A DNA stretch of 31,251 nt, from the IMG/VR virus record IMGVR_UViG_3300047552_001268, positions 1-31,251 of that record, one strand, 5' to 3'. The translations under genes were made by a program, and so were the position numbers. The stretch comes from a virus. This document shows, one piece after another, positions 3,928 to 28,554 of the stretch (the first letter of the stretch is position 1; each line of letters opens with the position of its first letter). The notes under the pieces were generated by a model. The model made no database searches and was not told the DNA's origin. It worked only from the letters and a program-made list of their open reading frames with translations.

Positions 3928-4712
3928 GCGCGCTTGTGATTGGTCCGCACTCTGTTCGCCGCGACGGCGACATGTGGTGCATCACCGATCTGTGGCGCGC
4001 GGCGGGCGCGCCGAAGGACAAGCGGCCTGCGGAGTTCCTTCGATTTGAGGGGGCGACATTCGCTCAATTTCTGTCTGATTCCCTTGATGTGGGCCCTGCC
4101 CATATCAAGAAAACCCGCAAAATCGCGGGTGGCGGCGGAGAGACGTGGACGCACTGGCAGCTCGCGCTGGCCTACGCCAAGTGGATCGATCACGCGTTCC
4201 ACGCGCGAGTCAACGACGTCTACCGCGCCTTCGCCACTGGGCAGTTGACGGTTCGCGATCCGGAGGCCGTCCACCTTGCCCTCCGCATTCAGCGCCTCAA
4301 CTCCGCTGACTACGAGTCGGCCTGGGATACGGAGCTGAAGCTGGAGCTCGCCAGACTCCGGAAGGTGAAGGGATGGACGCCAGGTCCAGGCCACGGTCCT
4401 GAGCCAAGGGGACTCGCCCTCGCCTACGGTAGGACGTGGCGCATCATCCTTGGCGATGCCGTCTACGACGAGCTGAAGGCCCGTAATCCGGAGCCAAGGG
4501 ACGGGAGCCTCCACGGACAGTGGATCCGTGATGACAGGCTGCGGCTCATTCGGAGAGAGGACATGGTCCTCACTCTCTTCATTGCCCGTCGCGCGACGTC
4601 GTGGCGCGAATACGAATCAGAGATGCGTGCGCACTTCCGACGCACACCGATTCAGCTTCGGATGCCGTCCAGGTTTGCCGCGGTCATCCCGATCCGAGGA
4701 CGTGACGCATGA
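3924..4712 (+). CDS. KilA-N domain protein, probable P63C-type C-terminus
   Basis: This 262-residue protein starts with a KilA-N domain (about residues 1-110): MWCITDLWRAAGAPKDKRP, a middle segment, then ETWTHWQLALAYAKWIDHAF, the conserved T-W-x-H-x-x-L-A-x-x-Y-A-x-W-I pattern of KilA-N. The C-terminal half contains GRTWRIILGDAVYDELKARN and LHGQWIRDDRLRLIRRE with WREYESEMRAHF, resembling the P63C domain found in phage anti-repressor-type proteins. KilA-N binds DNA and is common in early regions of large DNA viruses and phages. It is coupled by 4-bp overlaps to the genes on both sides and precedes a DNA methyltransferase. Domain recognition is by motif only; the regulatory role is inferred. 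Confidence 0.75.
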   Translation: MSALVIGPHSVRRDGDMWCITDLWRAAGAPKDKRPAEFLRFEGATFAQFLSDSLDVGPAHIKKTRKIAGGGGETWTHWQLALAYAKWIDHAFHARVNDVYRAFATGQLTVRDPEAVHLALRIQRLNSADYESAWDTELKLELARLRKVKGWTPGPGHGPEPRGLALAYGRTWRIILGDAVYDELKARNPEPRDGSLHGQWIRDDRLRLIRREDMVLTLFIARRATSWREYESEMRAHFRRTPIQLRMPSRFAAVIPIRGRDA

Positions 4713-5530
4713 GGACCGAGTGCGGGGCGGGCTGGCCGATGCACTTGGCCGACTGCGTCGACGTCTTGCCGAAACTCGAGCCCGTCGACGTGTGCATTCA
4801 GGATCCGCCGTACGAGGTGGAGGCGCATACCAAGGCGCGTCGGTCTCTGAAGGACGCAACGCAGAAGCGCGGAGCTCGAAACACCGGAGAGGTCCGGCGC
4901 ATCGACCGACCGCTGCTCATCAACTTCACGCACATGACTTCAGCGTTGAGGTCCGATGTCTCGCGGCTCGAAGCCCGCATCGTTCGCCGATGGACACTCA
5001 CGTTCTGTCAGGTCGAAGCGATCGGCTTGTGGCGCCAGGCGTTCGAAGAAGCTGGCCTCCAGTGGATCCGAGCTGGCGTCTGGATCAAGCCCAACGGCAT
5101 GCCGCAGATGACCGGCGATCGTCCTGGTCAGGGCTTCGAGTCGTTGGCCATCGTTCACCCGAAAGGCCGGAAGCGCTGGAACGGCGGCGGGAAGCACGCG
5201 GTGTGGACGGTTCCGCTGGACCACAACGCTGGCGGCGGCGGGAAGAACGAGCATCCGACGTCCAAGCCGGTTGCGCTCATGTTGCAGCTCGTCTCCGACT
5301 TCTCTCAGCACGGTGAAGCGATCCTCGACCCGTTCGCCGGTAGCGGGACGACAGGCGTGGCCTGTCTTCGGCTCGGGCGGCGCTTCATCGGCGTCGAGAG
5401 GGACGAGCGGTACTTCGAGCTCGCCTGCGAGCGGCTCCGCGCCGAAGAGGCCGGGTCGACCGTCCAAGCGGCGCGCGCGCGGCAGCATGCACTCTTCGAC
5501 GTGCTCGCAACTCGACACGGAGGTGGTTGA
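4709..5530 (+). CDS. Site-specific DNA methyltransferase (beta-type amino-MTase)
   Basis: This 273-residue protein has the two hallmark motifs of N6-adenine/N4-cytosine DNA methyltransferases in beta order: catalytic DPPY at residues 32-35, and the S-adenosylmethionine-binding DPFAGSGTTG at residues 207-216, followed by RRFIGVERDERYFELACERL, which carries the acidic ribose ligand. The usual HPTSKPVALM segment before motif I is also seen. Between them lies a target-recognition region. It would methylate adenine or N4-cytosine in phage or host DNA, commonly to avoid host restriction. No restriction enzyme partner is adjacent, which fits an orphan phage methyltransferase. ATG 4709 overlaps the KilA-N stop and the TGA at 5528-5530 overlaps the next ATG. 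Confidence 0.9.
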   Translation: MRTECGAGWPMHLADCVDVLPKLEPVDVCIQDPPYEVEAHTKARRSLKDATQKRGARNTGEVRRIDRPLLINFTHMTSALRSDVSRLEARIVRRWTLTFCQVEAIGLWRQAFEEAGLQWIRAGVWIKPNGMPQMTGDRPGQGFESLAIVHPKGRKRWNGGGKHAVWTVPLDHNAGGGGKNEHPTSKPVALMLQLVSDFSQHGEAILDPFAGSGTTGVACLRLGRRFIGVERDERYFELACERLRAEEAGSTVQAARARQHALFDVLATRHGGG

Positions 5531-7305
5531 TGGTCTGGGCGAAGATCGACGATGAAATTCTCGACAACGAGAAGATCGCAAATGCTGGGGTGCTCGGCTT
5601 TGCGCTGCACATAGCCGCCATCACCTGGTGTTGTCGCAAGCTCACCGACGGCTTCATCCCTTACCCACGCGTCCGACTCCTTCTGGACCTGAGCGATCTC
5701 GCCGTCGAGTTTGTCGAGGCTACCGACAGCATCAAAGGCTTCAAGGACAGCGCCCAAAAGGCGCTGTACGACCTCGGGCAAGCTCAAGCCGACAACATCG
5801 CCAAGACCCTTGTTGGGTGCGGCCTCTGGCGAGAGGACGAGGAGCGCGGCGGGTTCTGGATCCACGACTTCCTCGAGTACAACCCAAGTCGCGAAGAAGC
5901 CGAGGCGCAGAAGGCGGCGCGGACTGAGGCCGGTCGGCGGGGTGGACAGGCCAACGCTCGAAAGCGAACACGAGCCACCCCGGAAGCACTTGCTCAAGCA
6001 AGTGCTCAAGCAAGTGCTCAAGCAAGTGCTCAAGCAAGTGCTCAAGCAAGTGCTCAAGCAAGTGCTCAAGCAAGTGCTCAAGCAAGTGCTCAAGCACCTG
6101 CTCAAGCAAGTGCTCAAGCACCTGCTCAAGCAAAATCGAAGCAAGGCGCGAGCAAAACTGTAGCGAGTCCTGCTGTCTTGACCGCGGCGGCGTCTCAGAC
6201 TGGTCTCCGATTGGCAGCACCACTCACCGTCCTGACCGCCACCCATGAGACAGGGTCGCGTGACGGAGATCGGTCGGAAGCCTTGCAAGTTTCCGAAAAC
6301 GCTTCTGTTTTCAAAACGGACCAAGCACTTGCTGTAGCACTTGCTCAAGCACCTGCTCAAGCAAGTGCTCAAGCACCTGCTCAAGCAAGTGCTCAAGCAC
6401 TTGCTCAAGCAAAATCGAAGCAAAACTGTACCCCGATCCCGATCCCGATCCCCTTAAGAGATCCCTCCCCTACCCCGCCCAAGGGGCGGGTATCGGCGGA
6501 CGACGCCGTGGCAGCGTTGCGCAAGCTCCGAGGCTACTCCGGTGCCGGCCTGCTAAACGATGCCGCGGTCGAGACCCTCACCGCCCACGGCTTCGAATGC
6601 TCGCGCGAGTTCGAAGTTGCAGACCGTGGCGACGGCCGCCGTGGATTCGTCGACATCGTCGCGCGACACGGATCGACCGTGGTCGCGATCGAACTGGATC
6701 GGGAGTCGCCGAGGGAGAAGTCGATCCGCAAGCTCGCCCAAGTCCCGGACGCACACCGGATCGTCGTGCTGCGAGAAGCACCGGACCCGATCGGGAAAGA
6801 TCCTCGCTTGGACTTCGTTGTCGGGCTCGGCGCGCCGCGCGAGACGGGACCATCTCGCCAGCGCATTGTCGACCTTGGCACACCCGGCATGGAGGAAGCC
6901 GTTTACGCATTCTCCGACGCGCTAGCTCGCGGGCTTGGCCACGAGGTGGCCGTGGTCAACGAGCGCTCGCCTCGAGTTGCGCTGGCGGCGGCGATCAACA
7001 CTCACCTGCGAGCCGACGGTACCATCTCCGGAGCACTCGCTGCGCTGCGAGAAGCCGTCGCCGAGTGGGTCGACGCGAATCGCGAGCAACCGAAGTTCAC
7101 CTCCGGCTGGAGCCCCCGAAAGTTTCTGGACTGGCTGAACGAGCGTGAGCACGACGTCGACGTCGACGAACCGCCGCCGCCCGCGGCACCCACCAAGTCC
7201 GAGCCACCCCGCGATCCGCCGATGACGCCTGCGCAGCGCGCGCAGCGCATGGCCCAGCTCGCCGAGCTCGAAAACGATCCCGCCTACCGGAGCAAGTTCC
7301 TGTGA
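5530..7305 (+). CDS. Replication initiator-like protein with AQAS repeats and nuclease-like domain
   Basis: ATG 5530 follows GGAGGT and overlaps the methyltransferase stop; the product has 591 residues. Residues 1-140 (MVWAKIDDEILDNEKIANAG, later GLWREDEERGGFWIHDFLEY) resemble the N-terminal winged-helix domain of phage replisome organiser proteins. Residues 154-202 and 271-295 are (A-Q-A-S/P) repeats encoded by the 12-bp arrays. Residues about 320-415 look like a PD-(D/E)XK nuclease or its inactive relative: GFVDIV (D375), AIELDR (E388, D390) and EKSIRKL (K397). The C-terminal part (SGWSPRKFLDWLNE, then proline-rich) is unassigned. The next two genes are primase and DnaB helicase, so initiation or helicase loading is the likely role. 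The combination of domains is unusual and may be a fusion. Confidence 0.7.
   Translation: MVWAKIDDEILDNEKIANAGVLGFALHIAAITWCCRKLTDGFIPYPRVRLLLDLSDLAVEFVEATDSIKGFKDSAQKALYDLGQAQADNIAKTLVGCGLWREDEERGGFWIHDFLEYNPSREEAEAQKAARTEAGRRGGQANARKRTRATPEALAQASAQASAQASAQASAQASAQASAQASAQASAQAPAQASAQAPAQAKSKQGASKTVASPAVLTAAASQTGLRLAAPLTVLTATHETGSRDGDRSEALQVSENASVFKTDQALAVALAQAPAQASAQAPAQASAQALAQAKSKQNCTPIPIPIPLRDPSPTPPKGRVSADDAVAALRKLRGYSGAGLLNDAAVETLTAHGFECSREFEVADRGDGRRGFVDIVARHGSTVVAIELDRESPREKSIRKLAQVPDAHRIVVLREAPDPIGKDPRLDFVVGLGAPRETGPSRQRIVDLGTPGMEEAVYAFSDALARGLGHEVAVVNERSPRVALAAAINTHLRADGTISGALAALREAVAEWVDANREQPKFTSGWSPRKFLDWLNEREHDVDVDEPPPPAAPTKSEPPRDPPMTPAQRAQRMAQLAELENDPAYRSKFL
5991..6134 (+). repeat. 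Twelve tandem 12-bp units, candidate iterons
   Basis: Unit TGCTCAAGCAAG occurs eight times without change (5991-6086), then one CC variant, one perfect unit, another CC variant and a final AAA variant. It encodes A-Q-A-S/P in the replication gene. The left edge also forms a 10-bp inverted repeat (5985-5994 with 5997-6006). Composition is less GC-rich than its surroundings. In lambda and related phages the origin iterons lie inside the initiator gene, which is why an origin role is suggested. Confidence 0.9.
6342..6413 (+). repeat. Second array of six 12-bp units
   Basis: Six units of the same family (TGCTCAAGCAAG with CC, CT and AAA variants) lie about 210 bp after the first array. Both arrays end with the same sequence (CAAAATCGAAGCAA, then GCAAAACTGTA further on or immediately), showing that the arrays and their right flank were duplicated. 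Confidence 0.9.
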
Positions 7306-16895: not shown

Positions 16896-18584
16896 ATGGC
16901 TGACAAACCGGACGTTGCAGTCTTCCTTGAGCCGACGTCAACACGACGACTCCTGGAGTGGACGCCGCCGCTCATCCGTGCTGCGCGCGCGATGGCGGAC
17001 GCGGGCAACCTGGAGCTCGCCGCCGACTTCTGCGAGTCGGCCATGGGCGACGACCGCGTGCAGGCGGCACTCTCCACGCGCACGAAGGGTCTCGTTGCGC
17101 TACCCATCCGATTCGAGGCCGCTCGAACAGGCTCGAAGCGAGCGATCAAGGCGCTCGAAGCGGACGAGGATTGGTGGGTCGCCTTCGATGAGACCGCGCT
17201 ATCGCAGCTCCTGAACTGGGGCATCCTGCTCGGCGTCGGGCTCGCCCGGATCGTGTGGACCGTTCGCACGAACGTCGATCGCATCGTTCCGAAGATCGAA
17301 GTCTGGAACCCGCGGCACCTCCGCTACGACTGGGACCGCCGCGTCTGGACGGTGAAGGTCGCCGGCGGCGGCATCGAGGACGTCGTCCCGGGTGACGGGA
17401 AGTGGATCCTCTACACGCCGTACGGCACCTCTCGACCGTGGGCGTTCGGCGTCTGGCGAGCCATCGCGCTCTGGCACCTGCTGAAGCAGTTCGCCATCCA
17501 GGACTGGGCCTACTACAGCGCGAAGAACGGCGGCGGCCACCTCGTCGCGACCAGCGACATCAACGCGAAGGTCTCGAAGGAAGACCGGAAGAGTCTCGCC
17601 GCAGATCTCTTCGCGATGCAGGCGAACAGCGCCGTCGCGTTGCCCCCCGGCGTCTCGCTCGATCTCATCGAGTCGACGGCCGACACGAGCGGGACATTCG
17701 AGGCTCAGAAGAACGCAGCCGACCTCGGCATGAGCGTCTCTCTCCTCGGACAGAACCTCTCGACCGAGGTGACCGGCCCGGTGTCGACAGGAGCAACCCT
17801 TCACGGGAAGGTGCTTCAAGTCTTCATCGACGCGGACGCGCAGACCATCACGACGTGCATTCACGACCAGGCGCTGGTGTGGTGGGCGGAGTTCAACTTC
17901 GGGGCTCGCGACATCGCGCCGTGGCCCATCCTCGACACGAAGCCGCCGGAGAACCGGAAGGCAGAGGCCGACGTCCTCAGCGTCGTCTCAGCGGCGCTCA
18001 ACGTCTTCCAGAACGCCGGCGCACCCGTCGACGTCCGAGCTCTCCTCGAACGATTCGGCGTCCCGCTCAAGGACCCGAAGGACATCGAGCAGTCGGGGCA
18101 GGTCTTCAAGTACCACCTCGACTATGGCGTGCTCACGCTCAACGAGGTCCGCGAGCGTCTCGGACTGCCGCCCGTCTCCAACGGCGACGTCCCGCCGGTG
18201 CCTGTCGCGGCGCCTGCCGATCCGAACGCTGTTCCGGACCCGAACGCAGACACCAACTCAGACCCGAACGCGAAGGCGACCATGGCCGATTACGTGCAGC
18301 TTGCATCCGGTCGGATCGTGCGTCGTTCGAGTGGCGTTGCGGCGGGTCAAGAGTACGTCGACGGCCTTGCGGACAACGCCAAGGCTCGAGCCATCAAGGT
18401 GCTTGACGAAGACCTCGTCGCAGTCCTTGAGGCCATCAACGAAGCGACGTCCTTCGATGACGTCAAGACGCGCTTGGAGAAGGTCTACAAGGGCATGAAC
18501 TCCGACGCTCTGGCCAAGCTCGCCGAGGCGACCATCACGATGGCCCACCTCGGCGGACGTCACGCCATCAACGAGGATCTATGA
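16896..18584 (+). CDS. Portal protein, DUF935 (Mu gp29-like)
   Basis: This 562-residue protein matches DUF935-type portals: LIRAARAMADAGNLELAADF, MGDDRVQAALSTRTKGLVAL, NWGILLGVGLARIVW, KIEVWNPRHLRYDWDRRVW, and WAFGVWRAIALWHLLKQFA with IQDWAYYSAKNGGGHLVA. Later LIESTADTSGTFEAQKNAAD and QNLSTEVTGPVSTGATLHG are the conserved DUF935 C-terminal core. The last 110 residues (after a DPNA-rich linker near 445-465) carry helices such as ARAIKVLDEDLVAVLEAINE. The portal forms the dodecameric DNA gate at one capsid vertex and is the docking site for TerL, encoded just upstream. The last 4 bases overlap the next gene. Confidence 0.92.
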   Translation: MADKPDVAVFLEPTSTRRLLEWTPPLIRAARAMADAGNLELAADFCESAMGDDRVQAALSTRTKGLVALPIRFEAARTGSKRAIKALEADEDWWVAFDETALSQLLNWGILLGVGLARIVWTVRTNVDRIVPKIEVWNPRHLRYDWDRRVWTVKVAGGGIEDVVPGDGKWILYTPYGTSRPWAFGVWRAIALWHLLKQFAIQDWAYYSAKNGGGHLVATSDINAKVSKEDRKSLAADLFAMQANSAVALPPGVSLDLIESTADTSGTFEAQKNAADLGMSVSLLGQNLSTEVTGPVSTGATLHGKVLQVFIDADAQTITTCIHDQALVWWAEFNFGARDIAPWPILDTKPPENRKAEADVLSVVSAALNVFQNAGAPVDVRALLERFGVPLKDPKDIEQSGQVFKYHLDYGVLTLNEVRERLGLPPVSNGDVPPVPVAAPADPNAVPDPNADTNSDPNAKATMADYVQLASGRIVRRSSGVAAGQEYVDGLADNAKARAIKVLDEDLVAVLEAINEATSFDDVKTRLEKVYKGMNSDALAKLAEATITMAHLGGRHAINEDL

Positions 18585-18907
18585 ACGTCGAGACACCGCT
18601 CTCCGGAACGCTCACCGCAACGACGAACGGCGGCGCGATCAACGTCCAGCACGCACTGAGCCTCGTTGCTCACCTCAACGTCACCGCCGTCAGCGGCACC
18701 ACGCCATCGATGACGGTGAAGTTCCAGGAGTCGTTGGACGGCGCGCTCTGGATCGACATCCCGAGCGCGGCGTTCACGGCGGCGACGGCGACAGGGTCTC
18801 AGCGACTCGAGTTTGCCACCCGCGCCGCGATGGTCCGCGCCGTCGCGACCATCTCCGGCACGACGCCGAGCTTCACGTTCGACACGAAGCTTTGCGGCAA
18901 GCTCTGA
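18581..18907 (+). CDS. Small beta-sandwich-type virion protein, paralogue 1
   Basis: ATG 18581 overlaps the portal stop; 108 residues. It is beta-rich with repeated S-G-T-T-P-S blocks: VSGTTPSMTVKFQESLDGAL, then FTAATATGSQRLEFATRAAM and VRAVATISGTTPSFTFDTKL. The same scheme (SGTTPSMTV ... FTAATA ... R-A-V-A-T-I-S-G-T-T-P-S-F-T) recurs in the gene at 24028 and more distantly in the first half of the gene at 24403. It probably forms a small Ig- or jelly-roll-like domain, possibly decorating the capsid. Function is inferred from position between head genes. Confidence 0.7.
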   Translation: MNVETPLSGTLTATTNGGAINVQHALSLVAHLNVTAVSGTTPSMTVKFQESLDGALWIDIPSAAFTAATATGSQRLEFATRAAMVRAVATISGTTPSFTFDTKLCGKL

Positions 18908-22269: not shown

Positions 22270-23487
22270 ATGGCTCGCACGACCAAGTCTGACATCCTCA
22301 TCCCCGAAATCTTCGTCGAGACGGTCCAGGGAGCGTTCGCGCAGAAGAACGTCTTCCAGGGCGACTCGATGCTTGCTCGCACCGGCGCCGTCGTCACCAG
22401 CGACGGCTTCACGGGCGACCGCAACGCGATCGGCACGACGGTCGAGGTCCCCTACTTCGGTGTCATCGGAGACTTCGCTCCGAACGCCGACGGGTCGGCT
22501 GTCACGCCTAGCAAGATCTCGCAGACCAGCGAGAAGGCGACCGTCAGCCGCGACAGCCTCGCGTTCGAGGTCACGCGCTGGGGCACGATCGCCAAGGGCG
22601 GCGATGCCTACCAGGAGGCCGCCGCGCAGGTGGTCACCGCCGCGGCGCGCGCGATGGACAAGCGGCTCATCGACGAGGCCGTGTCGCCGCAGAACGGCGG
22701 CGGCTTGGTCAAGTCTGCCCACAGCCTCACGACGCCGGTGTTCTTCGACTACGACCTGATGACCGACTCGAAGATGATGTTCGGTGACGAGCAGGACGAG
22801 ATCGTTGGGCTCGCGGTCCACTCGACCACGCTCGGCGACCTCTACAAGCTCCGCGACGGATCGGGGCGTCCGCTCATCTCGGACCCGCGTGACGGGGAGA
22901 TGCCGCGCTTCATGGGCGTTCCGCTCATGGTCTCGGATCGTCTCCCGACCACTGGGAGCACGATGACGGCGGTGACGTCGGCGGGTACCTCGCCCCCCAC
23001 GGTCACGCTGGCGGGCAGCCCGCTCGGTGCGTTCTCGCTCAAGATCATCGTGAGCGTGGGCGGCTCGTCGAACGGCACGGCCAAGTTCAAGTTCTCGGTC
23101 GACGGCGGCACGAGCTACTCGGCCGAGCTCACCATCCCAAACGGCGGCGGCGCGATCGCGCTCACCGACACGGCGGTCGACTCGCTCATCGGCGTGAACG
23201 GCGCGACCGGCATCACGGCCACGTTCGCCAACGGCACGTACAACGTGGACAACACCTACGTTGCGACGGCGCGCCTGAAGATCCGCTCGCTCATCATCAA
23301 GCGGGCGGCGTTCGGCTTCTGGTTCAACCGTGACGCGCTCACCCTCCTCACGGACAAGGACATCCTGAACGACAGCGCTGTCGGCGCGATGCACCTCTAC
23401 GCGGCGGCGCTCCGGTACCGCCGTCGTCGTGGCGGCACCAAGCCTGGTGTCGTCGTCATCGAGCACAACGTCCGCAACTGGACCTGA
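22270..23487 (+). CDS. Major capsid protein with internal Ig-like insert
   Basis: ATG 22270 follows GGAGA and gives 405 residues. Residues 1-233 and 334-405 look like a phage coat protein of the Mu/N4 gp56-like group: LIPEIFVETVQGAFAQKNVF, GTTVEVPYFGVIGDFAPNAD, AAAQVVTAAARAMDKRLIDE, GLAVHSTTLGDLYKLRDGSG and FMGVPLMVSDRLPTTG, resuming at IRSLIIKRAAFGFWFN. Between them, residues about 234-333 are an inserted domain rich in G, S, T and V with FKFSVDGGTSYSAEL and GITATFANGTYN, like an Ig-type fold. The same kind of insert is in the tail sheath. It probably protrudes from the capsid surface. The coat assignment rests on position after protease/scaffold and size. Confidence 0.85.
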   Translation: MARTTKSDILIPEIFVETVQGAFAQKNVFQGDSMLARTGAVVTSDGFTGDRNAIGTTVEVPYFGVIGDFAPNADGSAVTPSKISQTSEKATVSRDSLAFEVTRWGTIAKGGDAYQEAAAQVVTAAARAMDKRLIDEAVSPQNGGGLVKSAHSLTTPVFFDYDLMTDSKMMFGDEQDEIVGLAVHSTTLGDLYKLRDGSGRPLISDPRDGEMPRFMGVPLMVSDRLPTTGSTMTAVTSAGTSPPTVTLAGSPLGAFSLKIIVSVGGSSNGTAKFKFSVDGGTSYSAELTIPNGGGAIALTDTAVDSLIGVNGATGITATFANGTYNVDNTYVATARLKIRSLIIKRAAFGFWFNRDALTLLTDKDILNDSAVGAMHLYAAALRYRRRRGGTKPGVVVIEHNVRNWT

Positions 23488-23492
23488 TCGTC

Positions 23493-23762
23493 ATGGGCAT
23501 CGGACTCCTTCGCCGGCACCGCGCTTTCGCCGAGCCGGCAGAGAACCCTTCGCGTCCGCAGGAGGCTGTGCTCGAAGAAAAGCTGCGCCTCGAGCGGATC
23601 CGAAACGCCGAGCTCGAAGCGAAGCTGGCTGCAAACCAGCCGGCTGCGCCCAAGGAAGCGGCCCCATCACCGCCGGCTGCCGCGCCTGCCGAGGCGCCGG
23701 CTGCTGAGGCCGCATCGTCCACCGATGCGGAGGCCACGGACAAGCGCCGCCGACCGCGATGA
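23493..23762 (+). CDS. Small coiled-coil and Ala/Pro-rich protein
   Basis: ATG 23493 lies five bases after the capsid stop; 89 residues. The middle LEEKLRLERIRNAELEAKLA is a coiled coil, followed by an Ala/Pro-rich tail with a basic end (KRRRPR). This arrangement is common for small head-associated proteins but no family is recognised. Confidence 0.55.
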   Translation: MGIGLLRRHRAFAEPAENPSRPQEAVLEEKLRLERIRNAELEAKLAANQPAAPKEAAPSPPAAAPAEAPAAEAASSTDAEATDKRRRPR

Positions 23763-24019
23763 GCGTCGAGCGACCAAGGCGCTACTACCTCGGGAAGCGG
23801 CTGGAGGCTGCGGTCAGGGGCTCGTCCCTCGCAGAGGTCTGGCAGGCCAAGCAAGAGGCCGAGCCTGGCACCAGCCTCGCCGCTGACTTCCCCTACCGCT
23901 CGCGGCTCGTTGCTGCGGGCTACAGCACCGTCGAGGATCTCGACGGGGCGACGGTCGATGAACTGAAACAAGCCGGCTTCTCCGAGCGGGAAGCCTCCGC
24001 GGTATTGGCCGCGATCTGA
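23759..24019 (+). CDS. Small protein with helix-hairpin-helix-like C-terminus
   Basis: ATG 23759 overlaps the previous stop; 86 residues. The C-terminal 45 residues (RSRLVAAGYSTVEDLDGATV, DELKQAGFSEREASAVLAAI) have the L-x-x-A-G-x-x-T-x-x-D-L pattern of a helix-hairpin-helix/SAM-like domain. It lies in the Mu gp35-like position in the head-completion cluster. The role is unknown. Confidence 0.6.
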   Translation: MSVERPRRYYLGKRLEAAVRGSSLAEVWQAKQEAEPGTSLAADFPYRSRLVAAGYSTVEDLDGATVDELKQAGFSEREASAVLAAI

Positions 24020-24027
24020 GGACAATC

Positions 24028-24396
24028 ATGGGATACACCGCGAAAGACGGCGAGTTTGTAGACGTCGACCAAGACGTTCTCCTTGACGCGACCACGCGCA
24101 CGGCGACCGGACAGTCGACTCCGATCGAGGTCAAAAAGGGGACAGGTTGCTTCGAGCTCTCGGTCACGGCTGCGAGCGGCACCACCCCTTCGATGACCGT
24201 CACCATCCAGACGAGCAAGGACGGATCTGGATCGGGCCTCGGCTCTTGGCGAACGGTCGCCACCTTCACCGCTGCGACGGCGGCCACGGCGGAGCGTGTC
24301 TCGGCGACATCGCTCGACCGATTCATCCGCGCCGTAGCGACCATCAGCGGGACCACCCCGTCCTTCACCTACTCGGTCAAGGGCGACCTGAAGTAA
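24028..24396 (+). CDS. Beta-sandwich-type virion protein, paralogue 2
   Basis: ATG 24028 gives 122 residues. It repeats the scheme of the gene at 18581: FELSVTAASGTTPSMTVTIQ, RTVATFTAATAATAERVSAT and IRAVATISGTTPSFTYSVKG. The N-terminal 30 residues (MGYTAKDGEFVDVDQDVLLD) differ. It is probably a small surface or joining beta domain. It is adjacent to the fused version in the next gene. Confidence 0.7.
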   Translation: MGYTAKDGEFVDVDQDVLLDATTRTATGQSTPIEVKKGTGCFELSVTAASGTTPSMTVTIQTSKDGSGSGLGSWRTVATFTAATAATAERVSATSLDRFIRAVATISGTTPSFTYSVKGDLK

Positions 24397-24402
24397 GGCG
24401 TC

Positions 24403-25131
24403 ATGTCCAACTGGGAAACCGCCGTCACGTTGCTCGCGTCGACCGTCATCGGTGCGACCGGTGCGGGTGCGGCGGTCGACCTTGGCGCGACGGATCGTCT
24501 GCTTCGGCAGACGCTCGACATCACCGCAGCGACCGGCGCGATCAACGTCTCGCTGGAGTGCGCTCCATCGGCGAGCGGGCCGTGGAAGTCGTTCGCCTCG
24601 TACGCGCAGGCCGGCTCCGTCTCATCGGAGAAGGTCAGCGCGGTCTCGCCGGATCGGTACGTGCGCGTTGCATACAAGCTCACGAGCGGATCGGTTACTC
24701 TCTCGGTCAGCGGAACGAAGGGCACGTCGTTCGCGAATCTGATCGACCTCGCTGGCAAGGGCTCGCCCATGCCAGCGATGGTCAAGCTGTCCACGACCGA
24801 CAAGGCGGAGCAGCTTGCCGCCACCACGGAGGTCGCGGCGGGCATCCTGTCGCGACGCTACACGCTCCCGATCACCGCGTGGGGCGGTGATATCACGCTC
24901 GCCGTCGTCAAGATCGCAACGTACGAGCTCCTCGCGACGCGCGGCTACAACCCCGACGGCGACGACGACCAAGTCCGCAAGCGGTACGAAGACGCGATGG
25001 CGTGGCTGCGTGACGTCGCCGACGGCACGTTCAACCCCATCGGCTTGGTGGACTCGTCCACTCCAGGGACGGACACCGAGGGTGCTGGTGAGGCCTTCAC
25101 CGTGACCTTCCCATCGAGGGGATGGCGATGA
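24403..25131 (+). CDS. Beta domain fused to a Mu gp36-like (DUF1320) head-completion protein
   Basis: ATG 24403 gives 242 residues in two parts. Residues 1-115 are a third, more distant relative of the beta domain (LDITAATGAINVSLECAPSA, FASYAQAGSVSSEKVSAVSP, VRVAYKLTSGSVTLSVSG). Residues 125-242 match DUF1320/Mu gp36: LSTTDKAEQLAATTEVAAGI, LSRRYTLPITAWGGDITLAV, VKIATYELLATRGYNPDGDD, VRKRYEDAMAWLRDVADGTF. gp36-like proteins join the portal to the tail. A shorter DUF1320 protein normally lacks the N-terminal beta domain, so this is a fusion. Confidence 0.75.
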   Translation: MSNWETAVTLLASTVIGATGAGAAVDLGATDRLLRQTLDITAATGAINVSLECAPSASGPWKSFASYAQAGSVSSEKVSAVSPDRYVRVAYKLTSGSVTLSVSGTKGTSFANLIDLAGKGSPMPAMVKLSTTDKAEQLAATTEVAAGILSRRYTLPITAWGGDITLAVVKIATYELLATRGYNPDGDDDQVRKRYEDAMAWLRDVADGTFNPIGLVDSSTPGTDTEGAGEAFTVTFPSRGWR

Positions 25132-25646
25132 GCCGCGCGAACATCCGAGGGGACTTCAGCGCGCTCGCCAAGCTCCAAGCGAAGGTGAAGAAGCTCGCGT
25201 CGAACGACCGTCAACTTGGGCTCTCCAATGTCGTCGGAGCGGCGATGCTCGCCGAGCTCCAACTGGGCTTTCGAAGTAGCACCGACCCGTACGGGAATCC
25301 GTGGGCTCCGCTGAAGCTGCGCACGGGCGGGAAGCCGTTGCTCGATACCGGGCGGCTTCGATCATCCTTCTCCTACCAGCCTTCACGCTCGGTCGTCCGC
25401 ATCGGAACCAACTTCATCGGGGCGCGGGTGCATCAGTACGGCGCGACCATCACGCCGAAGAACGGCCGCTTCCTCGTCTTCCGTGGGAAGAAGCAGACGC
25501 GCCGGCGTTCGTTCACGCCTTGGATCTTTGCCACCAAGGTCGTCATCCCGCGCCGGCAGATGGTCCCTGAGGGATCGCTCGGCAACTGGCGCGAGCCGAT
25601 GGAGGCCGCGGCAACGCGCTTCCTTTCGAGAATCATGAAGGGATGA
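25128..25646 (+). CDS. Virion morphogenesis / tail completion protein (Mu gpG-like)
   Basis: ATG 25128 overlaps the previous stop (an ATG at 25122 is in frame); 172 residues. GFRSSTDPYGNPWAPLKLRT, KPLLDTGRLRSSFSYQ and RIGTNFIGARVHQYGATITP are the hallmark blocks of the phage virion morphogenesis (gpS/gpG) family: D-P-x-G-x-x-W-x-P-L and L-x-D-T-G-x-L-x-x-S followed by H-Q-x-G. These proteins complete the tail end that meets the head. Confidence 0.88.
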   Translation: MSRANIRGDFSALAKLQAKVKKLASNDRQLGLSNVVGAAMLAELQLGFRSSTDPYGNPWAPLKLRTGGKPLLDTGRLRSSFSYQPSRSVVRIGTNFIGARVHQYGATITPKNGRFLVFRGKKQTRRRSFTPWIFATKVVIPRRQMVPEGSLGNWREPMEAAATRFLSRIMKG

Positions 25647-25649
25647 CCC

Positions 25650-26156
25650 GTGCTCTCCGCACTCCTTGAGGAGCTCGAATCCAGGCTCGTCACGATCTAC
25701 CCGACGATCTCGTTCGGGACTGGCGCGCGAGACTTGGCTCACCAGCGAGCGCTTCCCAGCGTGGTCTGGGTTCCAACGACAGCGAAGCACGACGCGCCTC
25801 GGAAGAGCACGAACCCGAAGAACCTCCGCACGAGGATCCGCACCATCGTCGCCCACTGCTGGGCCGTGGCGGACGGCGACGATCCGGACGGGCGCAAGAG
25901 TCTCGACGCGTGCGACGAGCTCGTGTCGAACCTGATCGTCGCGCTGCACAAGGTGGCGTGGGGCTCGGTCCGCACCGTCGGAGAGGACTGGATCCAACCG
26001 GACGAGATCAGCCACGGCCACGCGTGCCTCGTCACGTTCGAGATCGAGACTCCGGTGCAGGATCGCCCGTACGTGAAGGCGAAGATCGCAACCATCCAAG
26101 CGGACACAGTCGGCTCTGTCGCCGGCGATACCAACGTCGACTGGGGCGAACCATGA
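25650..26156 (+). CDS. Tail terminator-like protein (Mu gp37-like position)
   Basis: GTG 25650 gives 168 residues. LSALLEELESRLVTIYPTIS, LAHQRALPSVVWVPTTAKHD, RTRIRTIVAHCWAVADGDDP and LVTFEIETPVQDR look like the small alpha/beta tail terminators that cap the tail tube. Identification is by position and fold-like pattern rather than sequence motif, so moderate. The stop overlaps the next ATG. Confidence 0.6.
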   Translation: MLSALLEELESRLVTIYPTISFGTGARDLAHQRALPSVVWVPTTAKHDAPRKSTNPKNLRTRIRTIVAHCWAVADGDDPDGRKSLDACDELVSNLIVALHKVAWGSVRTVGEDWIQPDEISHGHACLVTFEIETPVQDRPYVKAKIATIQADTVGSVAGDTNVDWGEP

Positions 26157-26392
26157 GCAAGTCAAAGTCTGAGCAAGCCTTCGAAGTGGAGAGCGCCATG
26201 GCCTCACCGGACCTCAAGCCGATCGAGCATTGGCGCGACATCCTCGGCACGCCTGACTGGTTGTTCGCCGCAACCAAGGTCGGCAAGGGCTGGGCGATCG
26301 GGCAAGAGGTCACACAAGCGGTCTACGAGAAGGCCGTTCGCTGGGCGGCAGGCACGCCGCTCGAAGGCGAAGACGCAGTCGTCTGTCGCTGA
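26153..26392 (+). CDS. Small tail-region protein, 79 residues
   Basis: ATG 26153 overlaps the previous stop. LKPIEHWRDILGTPDWLFAA, TKVGKGWAIGQEVTQAVYEK and AVRWAAGTPLEGEDAVV form a mostly helical protein with Trp residues. No family is recognised. It lies between terminator and sheath genes. Confidence 0.55.
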   Translation: MSKSKSEQAFEVESAMASPDLKPIEHWRDILGTPDWLFAATKVGKGWAIGQEVTQAVYEKAVRWAAGTPLEGEDAVVCR

Positions 26393-26582
26393 GAAGTACT
26401 TCACATCGCCGAGCGGGGAGTCGCGGGGCGCCGGAGAGACAACCGGTCCGCGGTGATGATCCGTGTGAGTGAGAGCGTTGCGAGCGCTGGCAGGGGTTGT
26501 TCGGCCTCCTGACCGTCTCGCTTGATTCGAGCAACCGAAACGACGCGCGCTGAGGAAGCGACGCGAACGGGAGAGATCCATC
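26393..26582 (+). promoter_or_regulatory. Non-coding leader of the sheath gene
   Basis: No gene is seen. ATCGCCG (26405-26411) can pair with CGGTGAT (26451-26457) with one G-T, and TCACA (26401-26405) with TGTGA (26464-26468). The 12-mer ACCGGTCCGCGG at 26442-26453 occurs again in the tube leader at 28061-28072. It could hold a promoter or a structured leader; no clear promoter is visible. Confidence 0.35.
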
Positions 26583-28025
26583 ATGCCGCTTCCGAAAGTG
26601 ACTCAGACCATCGCCGATGGCGGGCTTGGCCTTGCCGAGCCGGATGACAGCTCGACCCACGTCGCGGTCGGAGTGTCTTCGCTCGGGACGAACAACGTCC
26701 TCGCGTTCTACTCGGACCCAGACAAGGTCAAGGCGGACTTCGGAGTCGGGCCGCTCGTCGACAAGGCGGTCTATCACCTCCAGGTCGCCGGCGGATCGAT
26801 CGGGCTGATGAAGATCAACAGCTCGGTCGCCGGCACCAACGGATCGGTGACTGTCGTTCGCGGCGGCGCAGGAACGTCGACCGGCACGATGACCGTCAGC
26901 GGCACGCCGAACGACGGCTACGAGTTCAAGTTCGTCATCACCAAGGGCGGCGCCAACCTCGCTGCGGCGACGGCGACGTTCAAGTACTCCGTCGACGGCG
27001 GCGACAACTACAGCGCCGACATCGCGATGCCGGTCGGTGGCGTCTACGCCGTCCCGAACACCGGCGTCACCGTCACGTTCGCGAACGGCGCGGGCACCGC
27101 CTTCGTGGTGGACGACACGCACTCGTTCACGTGCACGGCTCCGGGCTTCTCCTCCACCGACGTCAACAACGCACTCGACGCGCTTCGGACGACTTTTGCT
27201 TCGGCTCGATTCGGCTTCATCCACATCGTGGGTGCGGCCTCGACTCCATCCGGCGCGGCGACGATCGCGGCGGCGGTCGACGTCAAGATGGCTGCCGAGG
27301 AGAACGTCTTCCGCTACGTCTTCTCCATCGTCGAGTGTCCCGAGGACACAGACGCGAACATCATCGCAGCGTTCACCTCGTTCTTCTCGACGCGTGTTGG
27401 CGTGTCGGCCGGGTACTGCGAGCTCGTCGCGAACGGCAAGGTGATGAAGCGCAACGCGGCCTGGCCCGTCGTTGCTCGCATCTCGAAGCAGGACATCCGC
27501 CGCGACGTGGCGCGCACGAAGGCCGACTCCGAGGGCGGACCGCTCAAGGGCGTGACCAAGATCTACCGCGACGAATTCGTCACCGAAGGACTCGACGCGG
27601 CGCGCTTCATCACGCTCCGAACGTACGCGGGCAAGAGCGGGTTCTTCGTCACGAACGGCCGCATGATGGCGTCGACGACGAGCGACTACCAGTTCATCCA
27701 GTTCCGTCGGTTGATGGATCGGGCGTGCACGCTCAACTACTCCAACCTCTTCGAGTACCTCAACGATGACGCCGTGCGCGTCGACGCTGCTGGGCTCATC
27801 GTCGAAGCGGACGCGCGTGCGATCGAGACCAAGATCAACGGCATCCTCTCGGCGGACCTCACCTCGAAGAACCGCGTCAGCGACACGTCGGTCAAGGTCG
27901 ATCGCACGAACAACATCCTGACGACGCAGACGCTCCGCACGAAGGTCCGCATTCGTCCGAAGGGCTACGCGAAGTTCATCGAGACCGACATCGGCTTCGT
28001 CAACCCCGCGCTCGTCCCCGCCTGA
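26583..28025 (+). CDS. Tail sheath protein with internal Ig-like insert
   Basis: ATG 26583 follows GGAGA and gives 480 residues. The N-terminus (MPLPKVTQTIADGGLGLAEP, THVAVGVSSLGTNNVLAFYS, then VDKAVYHLQVAGGSIGLMKI) and the long C-terminal part (DGSE-type ARFGFIHIVGAAS, ENVFRYVFSIVECPEDTDAN, TLRTYAGKSGFFVTNGRMMA, YQFIQFRRLMDRACTLNYSN and VRIRPKGYAKFIETDIGFVN) are those of contractile sheath proteins (DUF2586-type). Residues about 82-191 are an insert with FKYSVDGGDNYSADI and GVTVTFANGAGTA, closely resembling the capsid insert. Contraction of the sheath drives the tube into the host. Sheath proteins tolerate surface inserts, so it likely projects outward. Confidence 0.9.
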   Translation: MPLPKVTQTIADGGLGLAEPDDSSTHVAVGVSSLGTNNVLAFYSDPDKVKADFGVGPLVDKAVYHLQVAGGSIGLMKINSSVAGTNGSVTVVRGGAGTSTGTMTVSGTPNDGYEFKFVITKGGANLAAATATFKYSVDGGDNYSADIAMPVGGVYAVPNTGVTVTFANGAGTAFVVDDTHSFTCTAPGFSSTDVNNALDALRTTFASARFGFIHIVGAASTPSGAATIAAAVDVKMAAEENVFRYVFSIVECPEDTDANIIAAFTSFFSTRVGVSAGYCELVANGKVMKRNAAWPVVARISKQDIRRDVARTKADSEGGPLKGVTKIYRDEFVTEGLDAARFITLRTYAGKSGFFVTNGRMMASTTSDYQFIQFRRLMDRACTLNYSNLFEYLNDDAVRVDAAGLIVEADARAIETKINGILSADLTSKNRVSDTSVKVDRTNNILTTQTLRTKVRIRPKGYAKFIETDIGFVNPALVPA

Positions 28026-28041
28026 CAGGCCACTCAACTAG

Positions 28042-28083
28042 CAACGACGCTCGCGGCCTCACCGGTCCGCGGCGTCGTTGTTT
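28042..28083 (+). terminator. Strong hairpin with T tail between sheath and tube genes
   Basis: CAACGACGC (28042-28050) pairs with GCGTCGTTG (28072-28080), extended by CGCGG/CCGCG across a one-base bulge, and TTT follows. The stem of about 14 bp is a good intrinsic terminator; since tail genes continue downstream it is probably partial, setting the sheath-to-tail expression ratio. Confidence 0.65.
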
Positions 28084-28101
28084 GCACATCTGGAGATCAC
28101 C

Positions 28102-28554
28102 ATGGCAGACGCGCCCATCATCAACGGCAACGCCTACTCGTGGGCGTCCATCGGCTTTGCGATCGACGGCATCGACACGCCAGACCTCACCGAGATCACC
28201 TACTCGCCTTCGCTCGATCCGGGCAAGGTCCGAGGTCTCGGCCGTCGCGTGAAGGCAACGACGGCAGGAGAGGCCGACGCCGACGGCTCCTTCTCGATGC
28301 TCAAGGGTCAGGCTGCCAAGCTGATCAAGTCGATGGGTGACGGCTTCATGCTGAAGCGGTTCTCCATCACCGTCTCCTACGACGAAGACGGCGAAGGGGG
28401 CATCGTCACCGACGAGCTCTTCGGCGTCCGGATCACCAAGGTCGAGGATGCTCCGAAGCAAGGCAACGAGGCCGTCGTGACCAAGTTCGACATCCACATC
28501 ATGAGGCTGAAGCTCAATGGTGTGGACCCGCACGGAACCAAGGATGACGCATGA
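28102..28554 (+). CDS. Tail tube protein
   Basis: ATG 28102 follows TGGAGA with a 5-base gap; 150 residues. INGNAYSWASIGFAIDGIDT, ITYSPSLDPGKVRGLGRRVK, ATTAGEADADGSFSMLKGQA, FSITVSYDEDGEGGIVTDEL and NEAVVTKFDIHIMRLKLNGV match contractile-phage tube proteins (beta-barrel hexamer rings). It follows the sheath and precedes the chaperone, the standard order. The stop overlaps the next ATG. Confidence 0.85.
   Translation: MADAPIINGNAYSWASIGFAIDGIDTPDLTEITYSPSLDPGKVRGLGRRVKATTAGEADADGSFSMLKGQAAKLIKSMGDGFMLKRFSITVSYDEDGEGGIVTDELFGVRITKVEDAPKQGNEAVVTKFDIHIMRLKLNGVDPHGTKDDA

Follow-up and report, generated by a model that had tools for sequence, protein, structure and literature searches.

A flagellar hook-associated-protein-like domain inserted in both the major capsid protein and the tail sheath of a phage

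Extra domains have been described on both the heads and the tails of phages. Among capsid proteins of the HK97 fold, SPP1 gp13 carries an extra hairpin in the A-domain at residues 224-234 (PMC6813328) and the I-domain of the P22 coat protein (residues 222-345) is an A-domain insertion as well (PMC9965877). Phage tail sheaths also carry extra domains, which in Evseev 2022 (PMC9230969) sit away from the tube, and which there and in an account of the XM1 sheath (PMC10457771) are inserted in the N-terminal part of the protein. The available text of these two papers describes such domains by fold similarity or as Ig-like sandwiches, the XM1 insertion domain (InD) being similar to FliD D3 at the fold level (PMC10457771), and does not mention the same domain in a capsid protein. 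A functional parallel is mycobacteriophage Douge, whose major capsid protein and tail tube bear outward-pointing Ig-like domains that attach to glycans of mycobacteria (PMC13033339).

Two homologous inserts in the capsid and sheath proteins

The locus analysed here is a viral record of 31,251 bases (hereafter the window), in which the capsid and sheath genes and the features within them lie on the plus strand; the capsid and sheath ORFs were translated and then classified. The gene at 22270..23487 encodes a major capsid protein (MCP) of 405 aa with the HK97 fold, related to SPP1 gp13 (1e-21) and to Gp6 of 9m66. Its match to Pfam Phage_capsid (PF05065) falls slightly below the cut-off and that to PHROG phrog_247 reaches 1.2e-17, with a fold match to the LME-1 capsid (Z 17). 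The gene at 26583..28025 encodes a tail sheath protein of 480 aa belonging to DUF2586/phrog_907, with PF10758 matching residues 3-475 (5.6e-44) and thereby covering both the N- and C-terminal core.

Alignment of the window MCP and three relatives with the MCPs of Meiothermus phage MMP7, Thermus phage Riverbug and a third contig, L008, revealed ~105 extra residues at a single point, where the flanking residues of the insert-free proteins are directly joined. In the sheath, the family models (386 positions in Pfam, 376 in PHROG) cover the 480-aa protein without its insert. Both are true, clean insertions, and the original prediction that each interrupts an otherwise normal virion protein was confirmed at sites expected to be exposed; it had also placed them correctly, at capsid residues ~234-333 and sheath residues ~82-191 (22969-27154). 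As aligned both with MCPs that lack it and with the sheath, the MCP insert occupies residues ~227-337 (22948..23280) of the A-domain, and its sheath counterpart residues ~82-190 (26826..27152). MCP residue 227 falls opposite residue 224 of SPP1 gp13, the start of the extra SPP1 hairpin, so that the A-domain site is equivalent to that of the P22 I-domain by chain position and SPP1 alignment rather than by superposition; the domain itself, however, differs from the insertions of P22 and SPP1. Because the MCP site matches the SPP1/P22 A-domain site and sheath extra domains sit away from the tube (PMC9230969), we infer that the insert would project outward as a non-core surface module on both head and sheath.

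BLASTP between the two proteins found a single similar region, in which MCP 227-334 and sheath 85-184 share 37% identity and 56% positives over 113 columns (E 8e-14). A profile built from four MCP inserts alone retrieved ~100 sheath ORFs, with E-values down to 7e-19, and HHalign comparison of MCP-only and sheath-only insert profiles gave 99.4% (E 5e-22, 88 columns). Structure prediction agrees. The MCP model (42 sequences, pLDDT 87.6) has the HK97 fold with a confidently modelled insert (pLDDT ~84-98), and the sheath domain, modelled alone from 96 sequences (pLDDT 93.9), is a beta domain in which seven strands reach 3 residues or more. Strand order is identical in both models, and six of these seven strands pair one to one: MCP residues 245-249, 256-263, 272-276, 294-299, 312-319 and 329-335 are predicted to correspond to sheath residues 102-107, 114-121, 132-136, 154-157, 162-167 and 179-185. 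The two inserts are homologous by common descent, which bears out the suggestion that head and sheath carry the same domain. The closest predicted viral relative of the sheath domain is a BFVD protein of 472 aa, A0A411CVZ4 (TM 0.91), which the full MCP model also matches; this is probably the MMP7 sheath, to judge from its equal length (472 aa) and 54% identity, not from its name.

The most striking motif is FKxSVDGGxxYS, an Asp-box-like hairpin that the MCP and sheath copies share with those of FliD and that weakly matches BNR and sialidase Asp-boxes. It reads SVDGGTSYS in the MCP insert (residues 276-284, 23095..23121) and, placed by BLASTP alignment and conservation, SVDGGDNYS in the sheath insert (residues 136-144, 26988..27014). 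Conservation common to both sets falls mainly on this S-x-D-G-G-x-T-x-S hairpin and on glycines, threonines, a proline and a core phenylalanine, mostly in turns or the core. Further conserved positions are particular to each class, and MCP copies alone have a conserved loop of ~12 residues, TDTAVDSLIGVNG (residues 299-311, 23164..23202), that is absent from sheath copies.

Flagellar relatives, distribution and history of the copies

The domain is a beta-sandwich of ~105 residues. It belongs to a single family, absent from the catalogues, that shares ancestry with the outer domain of FliD, FlgL and FlgK. Pfam and PHROG scans of 96 members found no convincing family match. The BNR/Asp-box, Lipocalin_4 and InlB-repeat matches in these scans were weak and were taken as motif-level only, and a PDB sequence search returned mainly sialidase Asp-box stretches. 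Foldseek of the domain against the PDB gave no significant match. A second fold search (VIA) placed FlgL nearest among solved folds, at Z 8.4 (rmsd 5.9), followed by flagellin at Z 7.8 with 3.0 A over 108 residues, FlgK (Z 7.5) and FliD D2-D3 (Z 5.2); the solved sheath 3hxl also appeared, matching at residues 93-179 (Z 4.2). The fold is that of the hook-associated outer domains at moderate values, with a high rmsd of 5.9-6.0 A for the two best matches; because the Z values are moderate, these matches indicate a fold class rather than proof.

A search of 235 Myxococcota genomes with the phage profile recovered phage sheaths. The chief class beyond these was made up of FliD-type proteins from eight genomes (per-genome E 1.7e-9 to 2.7e-5), five of them identified as FliD by Pfam and the remainder by equal length and alignment. 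The FliD matches end at the start of FliD_C and begin just after the Flagellin_IN motif where one is present. Reciprocally, a profile of the FliD domain recovered MCP inserts (E 2e-8 and 4e-7), sheaths (1e-7), FlgL (7e-17) and FlgK-like ORFs (2e-11), the last label being drawn from the character of the sequences and from their genomic neighbourhood rather than from a family scan. In HHalign, phage profiles matched FliD at 97-98% over ~87 columns and FlgL/FlgK alone at 79-86%, whereas an unrelated beta-domain from the same phages, used as a control, scored at most 16%. The profile relation to the hook-associated outer-domain family thus spans the full domain. No flagellar relatives were found in the 113 genomes searched from one other group, and scanning genomes with the MCP alignment brought up no relatives. 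A further Myxococcota protein (L177:1-2193) combines a lamin-tail domain with a significant match to the phage domain.

Besides whole-domain profile homology, the phage domain shares with those of FliD (HAP2), FlgL (HAP3) and FlgK (HAP1) the DGG hairpin and a GD(T/S)F-like end strand, and it likewise loops out in mid-chain, between the conserved halves of a protein that self-assembles. The host protein, export route and function differ, however: the flagellar core (FliD_N/FliD_C, FlgK, FlgL) is absent from the phage carriers, which are the MCP and the DUF2586 sheath, and the phage copies form a group of their own (100/96).

Scans of viral contigs yielded 15 distinct MCPs with the insert and 35 without, 86 distinct sheaths with the domain (a biased count, as the search used domain patterns) and seven other proteins. 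Together these define an uncatalogued family with more than 100 phage copies. Nine sheaths, of 554-591 aa, have two tandem copies (L097, L098, L099, L101, L107, L108, L111, L113 and L129). Carriers elsewhere in virion regions include Mx4 p64 (L012:18532-19995), L084, L091, L092, L070/L071 and the structural protein gp97 of Cellulophaga phage phi38:1 (L011:7210-11193), in which the copy is weak. A less biased count comes from loci found through the MCP alone, some contigs being counted twice: all 31 sheaths have the domain, and the MCP has the insert at 12 of these loci and lacks it at 19. The capsid copy is therefore an addition. The sheath copy is general and old in the lineage, extending to phages of the thermophiles Meiothermus and Thermus, and the capsid copy is a later, derived gain at the A-domain hairpin. 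Cultured relatives in which the sheath alone has the domain are Myxococcus phage Mx4, Meiothermus phage MMP7 and Thermus phage Riverbug. The mosaic contig L008 has a sheath (4411-5856) 75% identical to that of the window, with the domain, and an MCP (184-1044) of ~38% identity, without the insert.

In a domain tree rooted with twelve flagellar domains (~110 columns, many forks weak), the flagellar copies form one group (100/96) and the MCP copies one clade (97/89) nested in the sheath copies; in the unrooted tree, a supported branch divides MCP from sheath copies. The window MCP insert has its nearest relatives, at 71% identity, among the capsid inserts of other phages rather than in its own sheath. 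A recent duplication within the window phage was ruled out by both trees. The copy accordingly predates this phage and was inherited vertically. The original prediction of one mobile domain copied onto two structures is supported as to copying. The rooted topology suggests a single sheath-to-capsid copy, a direction that is favoured but unproven because forcing the sheath copies into one clade was not rejected (AU p 0.124). The same test, and the supported MCP/sheath branch of the unrooted tree, would fit a different history, in which capsid and sheath each took up an insert separately from a shared pool of flagellar-type surface domains with no copying between them. We consider this possible but unlikely, as the flagellar root nests the MCP copies in the sheath copies via several supported forks and every flagellar copy falls outside the phage copies.

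A tree of the MCP core without the insert puts the insert-bearing MCPs in two places (13 and 2), and confining all of them to one clade was rejected (AU p 0.004). Two capsid backbones therefore carry the insert, which appears either to have moved between them or to have been lost several times. The MCPs at L025:7001-8146 and L027:1101-2237 have it at the same point on a backbone apart from the main insert-bearing clade. The presence of the same domain on the head and tail of one virus offers a traceable case of spread between virion structures.

Possible roles at the virion surface

Looped out of the N-terminal half of the DUF2586 sheath and of the A-domain of the HK97-fold MCP, the domain is probably a surface module. 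The reading that we favour, with moderate confidence, is that this flagellar-type outer domain faces outward on both proteins and is likely to act in weak, multivalent adhesion. The sheath gained it first, and there it is widespread; the capsid followed later. Numerous copies over head and sheath could then touch the cell surface or the surrounding polymer at many weak points. By analogy with Douge, adhesion seems the most likely role, rather than a part in assembly or contraction. Douge likewise has small domains on the head and tail of one phage, and they bind the same class of host glycan; unlike the inserts studied here, they are C-terminal and Ig-like, and sit on the tail tube of a siphophage (PMC13033339). 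Since the capsid and tail-tube domains of Douge bind the same glycans, the functional part of the original prediction has experimental precedent in another phage, and weak surface binding by the inserts is plausible. Mucin binding by FliD of some Pseudomonas strains (PMC8306008) is a suggestive parallel only. That both inserts bind one and the same ligand, as had also been proposed, finds no backing in the alignments: what the two copies have in common is largely structural and does not point to a shared ligand, and the conserved MCP loop is missing from the sheath. This pattern makes a shared binding site less likely. A direct prediction is that the isolated domains of head and sheath behave alike towards a given host surface, either both binding it or neither doing so.

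The main alternative to adhesion, and one that can coexist with it, is that the inserts act as cement, touching neighbouring subunits and stabilising the capsid and the extended sheath. The MCP insert lies in the A-domain like the P22 I-domain, which stabilises its capsid and makes salt bridges between subunits (PMC9965877), and the extra domain of the phage 812 sheath contacts its neighbour (PMC9230969). A loop conserved in MCP copies alone and a sheath copy in thermophile phages would also suit such a role. However, the MMP7, Riverbug and L008 capsids do without the insert, which is therefore dispensable for this capsid type, and at 19 loci the sheath copy is retained without a capsid copy. 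We regard cementing as a doubtful main role, and outward-facing adhesion as the better account. Improbable as a whole, and less likely still, is the full scenario in which a single sheath-to-capsid copy of the flagellar-type domain was followed by its transfer between two capsid backbones, with head and tail sharing an adhesive or host-mimicking surface.

Naming of the domain and minor observations

The original wording described the inserts as Ig-like, implying a classical phage Ig-like domain such as Big_2, FN3 or I-set. This label is imprecise: the domain is indeed a small beta-sandwich, but not a catalogued Ig-like domain, and its nearest relatives are the outer domains of FliD, FlgL and FlgK. 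In favour of the label, extra sheath domains are termed Ig-like in the literature and one weak BFVD neighbour is annotated as SbsA Ig-like; the sheath of FP_Mushu, which has the insert domain in our analysis, is listed as two-domain in PMC9230969. Against it, none of the 96 members reached the cut-off of the Ig-type Pfam models (Big_*, FN3, I-set), the best values being 0.03-0.04 in one or two members, and the top fold and profile relatives are flagellar. Among folds of Ig topology the list held just one weak designed beta-sandwich (3b83, Z 2.2), although absence from this list excludes nothing. We therefore think a classical Ig-like identity very unlikely, and the domain is better named flagellar hook-associated-protein-like; phage surface domains are usually filed as Ig-like, and the sequence of this one leads back to the cap and junction proteins of the flagellum. 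Fraser (2006, as cited in PMC9230969) is reported to have described the Ig-like domains of phages as mobile modules of the surface, found on virion proteins of several classes. The present domain resembles those as a mobile surface module on several virion proteins but belongs to different sequence families.

A chance or low-complexity resemblance between the inserts, in both of which G, S, T and V are abundant, is already refuted, since the MCP/sheath local score (168) far exceeds those of shuffled sequences (mean 40.5, maximum 89 of 3000; Gumbel p 5e-10) and composition is thus not its source, reversed-sequence controls of the HHalign comparison gave 0.3-2.8%, and the reciprocal searches concur.

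The window holds a second repeated domain (phrog_9522/phrog_5707-like, SGTTPSMTV...), present three times (18581-18907, 24028-24396 and 24403-~24730). One copy is fused to a Mu gp36-like adaptor and the first two copies are 47% identical. Kinship between it and the insert domain was tested by profile and none was found. A tail-protein-like ORF (28078-28554) also matches phrog_9206 ('major head protein'), a doubtful label. Lastly, an ORF of the early region contains a long AQASAQAS-type repeat (5527-7305).
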